Positions 17,033 to 22,953 of a DNA stretch of 35,796 nucleotides are shown here, one piece after another. The DNA is from Hellea sp. (GTDB lineage Bacteria; Pseudomonadota; Alphaproteobacteria; Caulobacterales; Maricaulaceae), in NCBI GenBank assembly GCA_020629875.1, contig JAHDCL010000022.1, positions 1-35,796 on the forward strand, written 5' to 3'. Position numbers and translations under genes: made by a program. The notes beneath the pieces are model-generated. The model worked only from the letters and a program-made list of their open reading frames with translations, was not told the DNA's origin and did not search any database. The number at the start of each line of letters is the position of its first letter. Positions within the stretch are counted from its first letter, which is position 1.

Positions 17033-18328
17033 ATGAGCGATCAAAGCACAGCCCACCTTAGCAACTATTTCTCACAGTCCCTAAAAGACCGCGACCCTGA
17101 GCTCTATGCCTCCATGCAGGATGAACTAGACCGCCAACAACATGAAATCGAGTTGATCGCGTCTGAAAATATCGTTTCCAAAGCCGTGCTAGAGGCGCAG
17201 GGTTCTGTTTTGACGAATAAATATGCCGAAGGTTATCCGGGGAAACGCTATTATGGCGGTTGTCAGCACGTAGATGTTGCCGAAAATCTTGCCATTGAAC
17301 GGGCATGCAAGCTCTTTGATTGTGAATTTGCTAATGTGCAGCCCAATTCCGGATCACAAGCCAATCAAGGCGTATTCTTTGCGCTTTTAAAGCCCGGCGA
17401 TACAATCCTCGGTATGGATTTGGCCTCGGGTGGACACCTTACGCATGGTTCGCCGCCCAACCAATCGGGCAAGTGGTTTAATGCTGTAAATTATGGGGTA
17501 AAAGAGGATACTCACCTCATAGACTATGACCAAGTCGAAGCCCTTGCTCTTGAGCACAAACCACAATTGATTATTTGTGGCGGCTCAGCCTATGCTCGCC
17601 AGATCGACTTTGCTCGTTTCCGTGAAATTGCAGACAAGGTTGGCGCTTATCTGCATGTCGACATGGCTCACTTTGCAGGGCTTGTGGCAGGCGGAACCCA
17701 TCCATCGCCGTTCCCGCATGCACATGTTGCGACAACCACGACCCATAAAACGCTACGCGGTCCGAGGGGCGGCATGATTTTGACCAACGATAAGAAACTG
17801 GCCAAGAAATTTAACTCTGCCATTTTCCCCGGAATTCAAGGCGGACCGTTGATGCACGTTATTGCTGGTAAGGCCGTCGCTTTCGCGGATGCGCTAAAGC
17901 CAGAATTTAAGGCTTATAGTCAAGCGGTTATCGATAATTGCAAAGCAATGGCAGAAGCGCTTGTTGATGCTGGTTATGCTGTAGTTTCGGGCGGTACGGA
18001 TACACATCTCGCGCTCATCGATCTATCGCCGAAAGGCGTGAAGGGCAACGCCGCCGAGGCAGCTCTTGGTCGTGCGTATATAACGTGTAACAAAAACGGT
18101 ATTCCGTTCGATAAAGAGAAGTTCACCGTGACTTCAGGCATACGCGTGGGGTCCCCAGCTGGCACGACACGTGGATTTGGCACCGAAGAGTTCAAGCAAA
18201 TTGGTCAGCTTATGGCTGAAGTTTTGGATGCTCTTGCTTCAAACCCTGAAGGCAATCCTGAGGTGGAAGAAAGCGTGAAGCAGCGCGTTAAGGCGCTCAC
18301 TGCTAAATTCCCAATCTATGCAGACTGA
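17033..18328 (+). CDS. glyA: Serine hydroxymethyltransferase
   Basis: This PLP enzyme converts serine and tetrahydrofolate to glycine and 5,10-methylene-THF, the main one-carbon source. The 431-aa length fits. Visible signatures are [48 protein letters not shown] and the PLP lysine motif [14 protein letters not shown] (Lys239). C-terminal [16 protein letters not shown] binds the substrate carboxylate. A purine run (caacggag) precedes the ATG. In many Alphaproteobacteria glyA is followed directly by nrdR and the rib genes; here two - strand genes are inserted between. The 3' end overlaps the convergent thioesterase gene by 13 bases. Confidence 0.95.
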
Positions 18329-19142: not shown

Positions 19143-19616
19143 ATGCGTTGCCCATTTTGCAGTTCCGAAGACACACAGGTCAAAGATAGCCGTCAGGCCG
19201 AGGATAATACAGCTGTGCGCCGCCGCCGCCTATGCGGGAAGTGTGCGGGCCGTTTTACCACCTTTGAACGGGTGCAATTGCGTGAGCTAACCGTGGTCAA
19301 AAAATCAGGCCGACGCACTCCCTTCGATAGAGATAAACTGGCGCGAAGCATTATGATTGCGATGCAGAAGCGTCCTGTCGAACCCGAGCGTATTGAACAA
19401 ATGATTAGCGGCGTTGTCCGGCAGCTCGAAAGTGCTGGGAATGCAGATATTACCTCTGATCATATAGGCGCGCTGGTCATGGAAGGGCTCGCAGGTCTCG
19501 ATAAGGTTGCTTACGTGCGTTATGCCTCGGTCTATAAAGATTTTCGCGCAACGGCTGATTTCGAAACCTTTATTGAGGAAGAAAATCTCGACTCAGACAA
19601 TGAGCAAGAAGAGTAG
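19143..19616 (+). CDS. nrdR: Transcriptional repressor NrdR
   Basis: This 157-aa repressor of ribonucleotide reductase genes senses ATP/dATP. The N-terminal zinc ribbon uses Cys3, Cys6, Cys31 and Cys34 (MRCPFC and [18 protein letters not shown]). The ATP-cone domain follows (about 46-136) with [16 protein letters not shown]. The acidic tail ends [13 protein letters not shown]. It is the first gene of the riboflavin/nusB/thiL run, a common alphaproteobacterial order. Its stop codon lies in the same frame as the next gene, with only one codon between. Confidence 0.95.
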
Positions 19617-19619
19617 GCT

Positions 19620-20273
19620 TTGGCACGTCCACAGGTCACATTAAAGCTCGCCACATCTTTGGACGGTAAAATTGCTCTCGCCAATGGTATGTCGGAGTGG
19701 ATTACCGGAGAGAAAGCCCGGGCAGAGGGACGAAAGCTCCGTGCTCAGCATGAGGCCATCGCCATCGGCGCTAATACCGCTGTACTTGATAATCCTCAAC
19801 TCACGACGCGAATTGAGGGGCAAGCTAATCCCATCCGCGTAATCTTTGACACCAAATTGCGCCTCTCTCCCAAATCCAACCTCGCTTTAACTGCTAAAGA
19901 AACCCCGGTCTGGGTTTTTAGTGAAGTTGCCACTGGAGATGTTGCCGACGCATTGAAAGAGCGGGGTGTTCGCCTCATTAAAACACCTGTCAATTTACGG
20001 ATCGACCTTGAGGCAGCGTTAAAGGTTTTGCACGGCAATGGCGTCTCATCGCTTTTAGTCGAGGGCGGAGGTACGCTGGCGGCCAGTTTCTTTAAACTCA
20101 ACGCCATTGATATCATCGAGTGGTTTCGTGCGCCAATAATATTGGGCGGCGATAGCCGAGGTTCAATTGGCGATTTAAACTTGACGGACATAAACCTCGC
20201 CAAACGTTTCAACCGTATTGAAATCAGAGATCTCGGTGATGATATTCACGAACGATATGAGCGGATAATCTAA
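19620..20273 (+). CDS. ribD: RibD reductase domain only (standalone)
   Basis: This 217-aa protein matches only the C-terminal reductase half of bifunctional RibD, which reduces the ribosyl group of the aminouracil intermediate with NADPH. Visible motifs are VTLKLATSLDGKIALANGMS (NADPH/substrate loop), AIAIGANTAVLDNPQLTTR and SSLLVEGGGTLAASF. Full RibD is about 370 aa and starts with a zinc deaminase domain (HAE and PCxxxGRTPPC motifs), absent here. The upstream frame is closed by the nrdR stop two codons earlier, so no deaminase can be hidden there. The start is TTG, since the first in-frame ATG would cut into the cofactor site. The reaction order implies a separate deaminase gene elsewhere. 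Confidence 0.85.
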   Translation: MARPQVTLKLATSLDGKIALANGMSEWITGEKARAEGRKLRAQHEAIAIGANTAVLDNPQLTTRIEGQANPIRVIFDTKLRLSPKSNLALTAKETPVWVFSEVATGDVADALKERGVRLIKTPVNLRIDLEAALKVLHGNGVSSLLVEGGGTLAASFFKLNAIDIIEWFRAPIILGGDSRGSIGDLNLTDINLAKRFNRIEIRDLGDDIHERYERII

Positions 20274-20274
20274 T

Positions 20275-20883
20275 ATGTTTACTGGCATCATCACAGATAT
20301 TGGAACCATTAGGTCCGTGACCAGGGGAACAGGCGGAGAATGGGGCGATACACGTATGGATGTGACTTGCGCTTATGATACGGCGGGCATTGATATCGGT
20401 GCCTCGATTTCTCATTCGGGTGCTTGCATGACGGTCATTGAAAAAGGAACTGATTGGTATGCGATAGAGGTTTCTGATGAGAGCCTATCCAAGACCACAA
20501 TGGGAGATTGGGTTGAGGGGACACAGGTTAATCTAGAGCGCGCTCTTACCGGCAAAGACGAAATGGGTGGCCATTTGGTGACCGGTCATGTTGACGGAGT
20601 AGGAACACTGCTCAGTATTGAAGAGATTGCCGGTTCCCACAAATTACGTTTTGAGGCGCCTAAGGATATGGCGTTTGGAATAGCGCCTAAGGGCTCAATT
20701 ACAATTGATGGCGTGTCTTTGACAGTGAACGAGGTTGAGGACAGTCAATTTGAGGTCAATATAATTCCTCATACGTGGCAAGTCACCACATTGGGAAATT
20801 TACAGGTGGGTAGCAAAGTAAATCTGGAAATCGACCTCATAGCGCGCTATGTGGCCCGATACTTAGCGCATATGAAAGCTTAA
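20275..20883 (+). CDS. ribE: Riboflavin synthase alpha subunit
   Basis: This 202-aa enzyme dismutates two 6,7-dimethyl-8-ribityllumazines to riboflavin. It has two lumazine-binding barrels. The first starts MFTGIITDIGTIRSV and the second starts near residue 98 with MGGHLVTGHVDGVGTL. SITIDGVSLTVNEV is the conserved second-domain segment. The gene begins one base after the ribD stop and is followed after one base by ribBA, so translation is likely coupled. Naming varies (ribE or ribC). Confidence 0.94.
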   Translation: MFTGIITDIGTIRSVTRGTGGEWGDTRMDVTCAYDTAGIDIGASISHSGACMTVIEKGTDWYAIEVSDESLSKTTMGDWVEGTQVNLERALTGKDEMGGHLVTGHVDGVGTLLSIEEIAGSHKLRFEAPKDMAFGIAPKGSITIDGVSLTVNEVEDSQFEVNIIPHTWQVTTLGNLQVGSKVNLEIDLIARYVARYLAHMKA

Positions 20884-20884
20884 C

Positions 20885-22033
20885 ATGTCAGATAGCAAAT
20901 TAAACGAAATTGACGCTCAGCAAGTTTACAATCTCGCCACGCCAGAAGAAATTATTGAAGATGCGCGAAATGGGCGTATGTATATTCTTGTTGATGCCGA
21001 GGACCGTGAAAATGAGGGTGACCTTATTATCCCGGCTCAATTTGCAACACCTGACGCCATTAACTTCATGGCAAAATTCGGTCGGGGTTTGATTTGCCTA
21101 GCAATCGAAAATTCTAAAGCTGAAGTTCTCGGCCTAACGAACATGTCAGCGGATAATCGTTCACGGTTTGAGACGGCGTTCACGCAGTCTATCGAAGCGA
21201 GAGAAGGTGTGACAACAGGGATTAGTGCAGGGGATCGCTCGCACACCATTCAAACAGCCATTGATCCTGATAGCCGCGCGGATGATATCGTCTCGCCGGG
21301 TCATATGTTTCCAATTATTGCCAAAGATGGGGGCGTATTGGTGCGGACGGGTCATACAGAAGCCTCCGTTGATATTTCGCGTATGGCGGGGTTAAACCCG
21401 TCTGCTGTGATTTGCGAAATCATGAATGATGATGGGACAATGGCGCGCCTTGATGATTTGGTGAAGTTTGCGCAGTTCCACGGCCTAAAAATCGGCACAA
21501 TTGAAGATCTTGTGGCTTACCGCATGAAAAAAGATCATTTCGTAAAACATGTGGCGTCGTCTGATTTCACGTCGCAAAATGGCGATGCGTTTAAAATTCA
21601 CGTCTACCGCAATTTCTTAGACGGAAAAGAGCACGTTGCGCTTTCTAAAGGCGAAGCAAAAGCCGGTGAAGAGAGCCTCATCCGCGTTCATAAAATCGAC
21701 TTCGCGGGTGATATCCTTTATGAAGAAAGCCCGCGCTCAGGACTTATCTGGGACGCTATGAAACAACTGGCGGCCCATGATGGACATTCAGTTTTGGTTC
21801 TTATTCGAGAAGGTTCCATCGATACACTTCTTGAGCGCCTAGGTGCGCATAAGAGCTTTGTGGACCGGAAAGAACAGAATATCCGCGAATATGGCGTTGG
21901 CGCCCAGATCCTTGTGGATCAAGGCGTACAGAAAATGCGTGTTATTACAAATACAATGCCTAAACTCATTGGGCTCGAAGCTTATAATTTGGAGTTATCC
22001 GGTATCACACCGCTGATAACAGGAAAGAAATAA
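20885..22033 (+). CDS. ribBA: DHBP synthase with degenerate GTP cyclohydrolase II-like domain
   Basis: This is a 382-aa two-domain protein. The N-terminal half (about 1-215) is 3,4-dihydroxy-2-butanone-4-phosphate synthase, with the acidic motif VDAEDRENEGDLIIPAQFAT and the later GHTEASVDISRMAGL; it turns ribulose-5-phosphate into the four-carbon unit of lumazine. The C-terminal half aligns with GTP cyclohydrolase II. The zinc site, normally an HSECLTGD...RCDCG pattern with three cysteines, here reads HKIDFAGDILYEESPRSG with none of the cysteines. That domain should be inactive in GTP hydrolysis and may be structural. Such degenerate RibBA proteins are known in several Alphaproteobacteria. 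A real RibA must be encoded elsewhere. Confidence 0.9.
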   Translation: MSDSKLNEIDAQQVYNLATPEEIIEDARNGRMYILVDAEDRENEGDLIIPAQFATPDAINFMAKFGRGLICLAIENSKAEVLGLTNMSADNRSRFETAFTQSIEAREGVTTGISAGDRSHTIQTAIDPDSRADDIVSPGHMFPIIAKDGGVLVRTGHTEASVDISRMAGLNPSAVICEIMNDDGTMARLDDLVKFAQFHGLKIGTIEDLVAYRMKKDHFVKHVASSDFTSQNGDAFKIHVYRNFLDGKEHVALSKGEAKAGEESLIRVHKIDFAGDILYEESPRSGLIWDAMKQLAAHDGHSVLVLIREGSIDTLLERLGAHKSFVDRKEQNIREYGVGAQILVDQGVQKMRVITNTMPKLIGLEAYNLELSGITPLITGKK

Positions 22034-22036
22034 TCC

Positions 22037-22465
22037 ATGAAAATTCTTGTTATCGAAGCGCGTTTTTACGACAAAATTTCTGATGCTCTGCTGGAAGGAG
22101 CGCTTGACGTTTTACAAAAAGCAAAGGCCGAAATTGTCAAAGTGACTGTGCCAGGGGCACTGGAAATTCCACACGTTATTTCTATGGCGGAGGCGGCAAA
22201 TAGTGGTTTTGACGGATATGTGGCTTTGGGCTGCGTCATTCGCGGTGAGACGACTCATTACGATTATGTCTGCCAAGAAAGCGCGCGCGCAATTATGGAT
22301 CTTGCTGTGAATCAGCAGCTTGCCATTGGTAATGGAATTATCACCGTGGAGAATGAGGACCAAGCTTGGGCTCGTGCCTCAAAGGATAAGAAGGACAAAG
22401 GCGGATTTGCCGCCAATGCAGCGCTGAAAATGATTAAAATCAGAGCAGAGCTAAGCGCGAAGTAA
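22037..22465 (+). CDS. ribH: 6,7-dimethyl-8-ribityllumazine synthase
   Basis: This 142-aa protein joins the four-carbon unit to the ribitylaminouracil to make the riboflavin precursor. Motifs are [34 protein letters not shown] with general-acid His74, and [16 protein letters not shown]. The N terminus is short ([21 protein letters not shown]), which is usual for icosahedral or pentameric enzymes of this kind. The gene lies three bases after ribBA, and its stop overlaps the nusB start (TAATG). Confidence 0.95.
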
Positions 22466-22953
22466 TGTCTAAGGGTCCACATTCAAAGCTCCGCAGAGCT
22501 GCACGCCTAGCGGCTGTTCAAGCCCTCTACCAGATGGATGTTGGGGGAACTCTCTCCACGTCGGTCGTCAAAGAATTTATCGAACATCGCTTTGGTCTGG
22601 AAGGCGAGAAAAATTACATTGCTGCAGATGAAGAGTTTTTCGAAGATCTCGTCGAAGGCGTCGTTAAATTTCAAGAGGATATCGACAATCGTATCTCTGA
22701 AAATCTATCAGAGAAATGGTCGTTGAAGAGGCTGGATTTGACTCTGCGGGCAATTATGCGCTCCGCCACATATGAAGTTCTGCGCCGCCCGGATGTGCCG
22801 GCTCTTGTTATCATTGATCAATATGTATCGATTGCCTCGGACTTTTTTGAAGGGAAAGAGCCAGGCTTCGTCAATGGCGCGCTCGATAAAATTGCCAAAA
22901 CCGTGCGTCAAGCTGAGTTCGGATTAGTCGGCGCCGCTGCCAAGAGTGAATGA
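22465..22953 (+). CDS. nusB: Transcription antitermination factor NusB
   Basis: This 162-aa all-helical protein binds boxA RNA with NusE and takes part in rRNA antitermination. The start RRAARLAAVQALYQMDVGG and the segment WSLKRLDLTLRAIMRSATYEVL are typical, followed by VIIDQYVSIASDFFEGKEPGFVNGALDKIAK. It overlaps ribH by one base and thiL by eight bases, the standard ribH-nusB-thiL order. Confidence 0.95.
   Translation: MSKGPHSKLRRAARLAAVQALYQMDVGGTLSTSVVKEFIEHRFGLEGEKNYIAADEEFFEDLVEGVVKFQEDIDNRISENLSEKWSLKRLDLTLRAIMRSATYEVLRRPDVPALVIIDQYVSIASDFFEGKEPGFVNGALDKIAKTVRQAEFGLVGAAAKSE

Follow-up and report, generated by a model that had tools for sequence, protein, structure and literature searches.

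Separate genes for the deaminase and reductase halves of RibD in Hellea sp. and much of its order

In most bacteria the vitamin B2 enzyme RibD is one two-part protein. Its deaminase and reductase are listed among the B-vitamin pathway pairs that are most often fused, with protection of reactive intermediates offered as the rationale, and channelling through the fusion has been challenged (PMC4921024). The isolated deaminase domain of Bacillus subtilis RibG is reported to have activity yet to be too labile for purification (PMC8256712, citing Richter 1997), while Francisella RibD is described as dimerizing through its reductase domain and binding enolase through its deaminase domain (PMC12742849). 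Here we analyse a 35,796-nucleotide stretch of DNA from Hellea sp. (the window), in which the gene at the ribD position codes for the reductase half only, together with the remainder of the genome, the wider family, its order of stalked bacteria and the class.

Results

The rib genes of the window lie in a conserved neighbourhood whose first and last members we take, from their sequences, to be glyA and nusB (Table 1). Among the best 80 of 582 loci, the nearest is that of Hellea sp. MAG-164, at 79% for the reductase and 82–96% for the other six genes. The gene at the ribD position, here called ribD2, had been read from the sequence alone as encoding just a reductase, and profile comparisons bear this out: RibD_C is the sole Pfam domain of its product (residues 4–209, 140.8 bits), which passes the TIGR00227 ribD_Cterm model (161.1 against a cut-off of 150.15), falls short of the bifunctional TIGR00326 model (140.9 against 156.35) and aligns to positions 140–341 only of the latter profile. 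The junction likewise proved to be as first described, with the nrdR stop codon (TAG, 19614–19616) followed by one codon, GCT, and then by the TTG of ribD2 in the same frame. As the nrdR stop closes the frame, deaminase and reductase do not share one polypeptide, and the gap between the two genes leaves no room for a deaminase. Residues K9, T29, R41, D57 and R64 align with K151, T171, R183, D199 and R206 of B. subtilis RibG, whose numbering was reached via an inferred 12-residue tag, while E148 fits the motif of B. subtilis E290 and was placed by that motif. The score above cut-off and the retained active-site residues together assign ribD2 to the TIGR00227 family.

Table 1 Features of the window and of the free deaminase locus in the same genome
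Feature	Coordinates	Strand	Basis
glyA, presumably (serine hydroxymethyltransferase); opens the conserved neighbourhood	17033..18328	+	ORF; adjoins nrdR in related loci
nrdR	19143..19616	+	TIGR00244, 166.6 bits against a cut-off of 124.65; Pfam Zn_ribbon_NrdR and ATP-cone
ribD2, reductase-only ribD	19620..20273	+	ORF, Pfam, NCBIfam; 217 aa, TTG start
ribE (riboflavin synthase)	20275..20883	+	Two Lum_binding stretches
RibBX: DHBP synthase and GTP cyclohydrolase II (GCHII)-like domain without zinc cysteines	20885..22033	+	Pfam, NCBIfam, alignment
ribH (lumazine synthase)	22037..22465	+	PF00885
nusB, presumably; end of the conserved rib neighbourhood	22465..22953	+	ORF; after ribH in related loci
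Free RibD-type deaminase, 136 aa	G000:C61:4708-5118 = L003:1369-1779	C61 minus strand	PF00383, TIGR00326

The identical sequence of stop, single codon and in-frame TTG recurs in MAG-164 (L162) and in a further congener, G153 (L270), and because of this repetition the junction can be put down neither to chance nor to a fault in assembling the contig. In both congeners the intervening codon differs from that of the window. The sequence-only reading had taken the shared frame as suggesting a deletion; given its recurrence around a different codon, and the one-in-three chance of frame sharing that holds for any tightly packed neighbour, the frame carries no information on a deletion scar.

Deamination had been expected to come from a standalone gene, and one is present in the genome that contains the window (on contig C122; 2.59 Mb in 126 contigs, 81% complete). 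This genome has one RibD_C match and exactly two PF00383 deaminase matches, the first of which is TadA (NF008113, 171.5 bits against a cut-off of 150). The second, on contig C61 immediately behind the sugar-metabolism gene gpmA, scores 168.9 bits against TIGR00326 from profile positions 1–133 alone and only 27 bits against the TadA model (cut-off 150), marking it as RibD-type and distinct from TadA, and its nearest solved structures are RibD N-domains. It carries the HxE and PCx8C zinc motifs of the RibD deaminase domain, with H44, E46, C69 and C78 present for zinc binding and catalysis; the equivalents of these four, and likewise Asp101, are conserved in every free-deaminase row compared (46 of 46, including two repeat fetches). 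Within the substrate loop, His76 has become Ala, Lys79 Gly and Asn103 Ser in all eight f3 free deaminases that were read, and the residues of the f1 proteins are mostly unchanged (f and g numbers are our handles for families and genera). A second full-length RibD, which the sequence-only reading had named as a finding that would refute it, was not found in this 81% complete genome, and neither of its two genes holds a remnant second domain of the plant PyrD/PyrR type.

On sequence evidence we consider it very probable that RibD consists here of two monofunctional enzymes working in the bacterial order, the outcome of one ancient fission after which the deaminase moved behind gpmA. The free deaminase would convert 2,5-diamino-6-ribosylaminopyrimidinone phosphate (DAROPP) to AROPP, and reduction of AROPP with NADPH by the free reductase would follow, as is usual in bacteria. 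Archaea and fungi also have separate reductase and deaminase genes (PMC8256712), and the two halves might act in their order, reduction preceding deamination. This appears highly improbable, given that ribD2 has Lys, and neither the Thr of fungi nor the Asn of archaea, at the position (Lys151 of B. subtilis) whose bearing on AROPP recognition is reported from a yeast Rib7 swap (PMC3631187), that it misses the archaeal reductase model TIGR01508 (109.8 against a cut-off of 186.45), and that the deaminase is RibD-type. Lysine occupies this AROPP-selecting position in the window (K9) and in all 54 rib-cluster free reductases; these 54 come from 59 rows in which a reductase stood alone, less L067, L206 and L212, which are truncated or lie at a contig edge and (probably) belong to fused genes, as well as L085 and L086, which are other RibD_C proteins with N-termini that fit the two Asn at the Lys position.

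The division of RibD extends far beyond the genus. When 69 genomes of the family were surveyed for TIGR00326 matches at 1e-17, 58 were matched, and in 54 of these a deaminase-half and a reductase-half match lie at separate places; five of the split genomes are single contigs (G054, G148, G198, G213 and G297). The remaining four comprise three with a fused gene (G004, G078 and G315) and one, 70% complete, with the deaminase half only (G306). Across the order, 264 of 299 genomes were matched, of which 202 have two or more half-strength matches, 52 are of fused type (37 in f5, 13 in f3 and 2 in f1) and 10 have one half only; for genomes beyond the matches listed, the pattern was inferred from match number and E-value. 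The class survey (387 genomes) matched 297 outside the order, 274 at fused strength (better than 1e-58) and 23 more weakly. Counts from the long family, order and class tables were checked by a second manual count, with no script used. The earlier claim that the deaminase domain is gone from the ribD gene thus holds for the window, whereas a local or recent change does not fit a split of this breadth. The idea that the pathway is simply broken, through local deletion or faulty assembly, would suit a fragmented, 81% complete assembly, but the arrangement is shared by both congeners and by those 54 family genomes, single contigs among them, and the active-site residues are intact in both halves; we reject it as having next to no chance of being right.

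Two side observations arose from these surveys. Six genomes outside the order (G402, G456, G505, G536, G592 and G604) have two TIGR00326 matches, none at fused strength, and are possible further cases of split RibD. At 1e-17, RibD went unmatched in eleven of the 69 family genomes (f1 genera g2, g9 and some of g4), and the nine among these that also lack a PF00925 match may therefore be riboflavin auxotrophs.

Genome records agree on the taxonomic range. The best 80 of 582 loci, a sample biased toward likeness with the free reductases, comprise 38 reductase-only loci with nrdR, 40 fused loci and 2 at contig edges. Caulobacterales (26), Maricaulales (4) and Hyphomonadales (3) account for all 33 reductase-only loci with an order given in the record, the other five giving none, and no fused locus in this sample names any of these three orders. 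Reductase-only taxa among the 80 include Phenylobacterium, Brevundimonas, Asticcacaulis, Caulobacter ginsengisoli, Ponticaulis, Oceanicaulis, Maricaulis, Hyphobacterium and Hellea.

Fused ribD genes of relatives occupy the same place between nrdR and ribE, with nrdR adjoining in 20 of 20 class loci, which were chosen for being fused and so show position, not frequency. Because fused relatives have the gene in this place, it is the reductase that appears to have stayed and the deaminase that left. The free deaminase has a constant address of its own: in f1, f3 and f4 its immediate upstream neighbour, in the same orientation, is gpmA at 48 of 48 loci (45 distinct genes, as three were fetched twice), the reading of sequences and neighbours covering f1, f3, f4 and f5, and f2 deaminases being counted only. 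At the f5 locus L268, gpmA is likewise upstream of a free deaminase, in a genome that also has a fused RibD; at two deaminase-only f5 loci, L266 and L267, gpmA is not a neighbour, and the tree places both with the fused RibD of f5. The single contig G213:C1 holds two free deaminases 43 kb apart (L255 at about 507500 and L256 at 550509), each behind its own gpmA.

In the deaminase tree (73 rows, 136 columns), L268 joins the 25 free deaminases in a single group (97/93) nested within the fused N-domains of alphaproteobacteria (52-row set, 92/92), and the fused RibDs of f5, g25/g2 and g9 fall outside it. Alternatively, the native half might have been lost and a foreign deaminase acquired behind gpmA as a substitute; this nesting speaks against it, as does the ordinary identity of about 48–59% between the free deaminases and the fused N-domains of other alphaproteobacteria. 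Such a substitution gains some room from the reductase tree, whose backbone is unresolved and in which the free reductases are not in one group, and from AU tests on a short alignment, in which a grouping of the free deaminases with the fused RibD of f5 (p 0.134) or of g25/g2 (p 0.284) was not rejected; overall we regard it as improbable. Under the preferred fission reading, alphaproteobacterial ribD would have divided once, before the sampled families of the order diverged, with the reductase remaining at its rib-cluster position, flanked by nrdR and ribE, and the deaminase relocated downstream of gpmA.

Fused RibD nevertheless occurs in rib clusters inside the order, at L260-L265 and L269 (f3 g25/g23 and f1 g2) and at L035 and L036 (f1 g9). 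RibBA in the fused clusters of g25, g23 and g2 carries a canonical GCHII motif, and RibE and RibH of the differing fused-RibD clusters are only about 31–40% identical to those of the window. In these members the whole rib cluster has probably been replaced, and the fused RibDs of f5, of most of g25 (f3) and of members of g2 and g9 (f1) are probably later replacements.

A second peculiarity concerns the opening of GTP. The GCHII-like domain that follows the DHBP synthase domain in the window's RibBX is without the CxxGD...CDCG motif and scores 47.5 bits against TIGR00505 (cut-off 205.85); this motif is present in 20 of the 102 ORFs aligned to the GCHII-like half and absent from 82. Each of the seven genomes of the genus (81–100% complete) has one PF00925 match, of the weak type, and no GCHII other than the degenerate RibBX domain was found by PF00925 in these seven. 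With RibBX devoid of zinc cysteines and no other GCHII in the genus, the first riboflavin step there is without a recognised enzyme. Within the family, 53 of the 54 split genomes have only a PF00925 match of degenerate strength, and the three fused genomes have a strong one. As a general rule, the link between the split and this gap was rejected: f5 has fused RibD yet no PF00925 match among the matches listed, G098 and G251 are split yet match strongly, and of 200 matched genomes outside the order about 75 show no match better than 1e-44, with RibD at fused strength in 67 of these (hand counts). We take the gap to be separate from the split because it is scattered over the class, mostly with fused RibD there. 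The f5 genomes also have a short ribB frame, which, with no PF00925 match among the genomes listed, suggests that GCHII is missing in f5 too.

As a possible substitute we considered BrbF, a creatininase-type formamidase found in Sinorhizobium, where the GTP-opening enzyme itself is stated to be undiscovered (Yurgel et al., PMC9478397). BrbF-like creatininases occur in 168 of 299 genomes of the order but are absent from the four genus genomes tested and from some others, and were set aside; among the neighbours of the creatininase loci, a search for a GTP-opening enzyme returned nothing usable, mostly antisense frames. We tentatively suggest, with slightly more doubt than belief, that the front end of the pathway has been rebuilt, with RibD as two free enzymes and GTP opened either by an unrecognised enzyme or by the zinc-cysteine-free domain of RibBX.

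Discussion

If the two halves of RibD act as free enzymes, AROPP would pass through solution or through a complex formed in trans. The free deaminase must then have other means of stability, since the B. subtilis domain is unstable alone and Francisella RibD dimerizes via its reductase. The deaminase gene next to gpmA recalls the enolase binding reported for Francisella RibD (PMC12742849), and this may be coincidence. An order with both enzymes but no fusion offers a natural test of the idea that fusion protects the intermediate, and a source of free bacterial deaminases that, unlike the B. subtilis domain, would be stable alone or paired in trans. Annotation can also be corrected, since within the rib cluster a search for 'ribD' recovers just one half of the enzyme. 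The gap at GCHII, for its part, bears on the search for the GTP-opening enzyme postulated in Sinorhizobium (PMC9478397).

Separate deaminase and reductase proteins are known from archaea, fungi and plants; for an order-wide bacterial version we found no report, our literature search having covered titles and the start of abstracts, with subscription papers mostly outside it. The RibBX described by Brutinel et al. in 2013 resembles that of the window in joining DHBP synthase to a degenerate GCHII-like domain, but bacteria with it reportedly have a separate RibA, which the PF00925 survey of the window's genus did not find. The Rib7 reductase and Rib2 deaminase of archaea and fungi are, like the two proteins described here, separate and monofunctional, but they are described as reducing first, whereas the proteins here combine the bacterial Lys and a ribD_Cterm score with a RibD-type deaminase (PMC8256712, PMC3631187). 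Arabidopsis PyrD and PyrR likewise place deaminase and reductase on separate proteins, but are reported to be full-length RibD homologues with an inactive second domain, which is absent altogether here (PMC9678776). Both domains of the bifunctional RibD/RibG (E. coli RibD, B. subtilis RibG; TIGR00326) are also present here, with the tested zinc, catalytic and substrate-selecting residues; there they belong to one protein, whereas here they are divided between two genes in two places, neither with the domain of the other.
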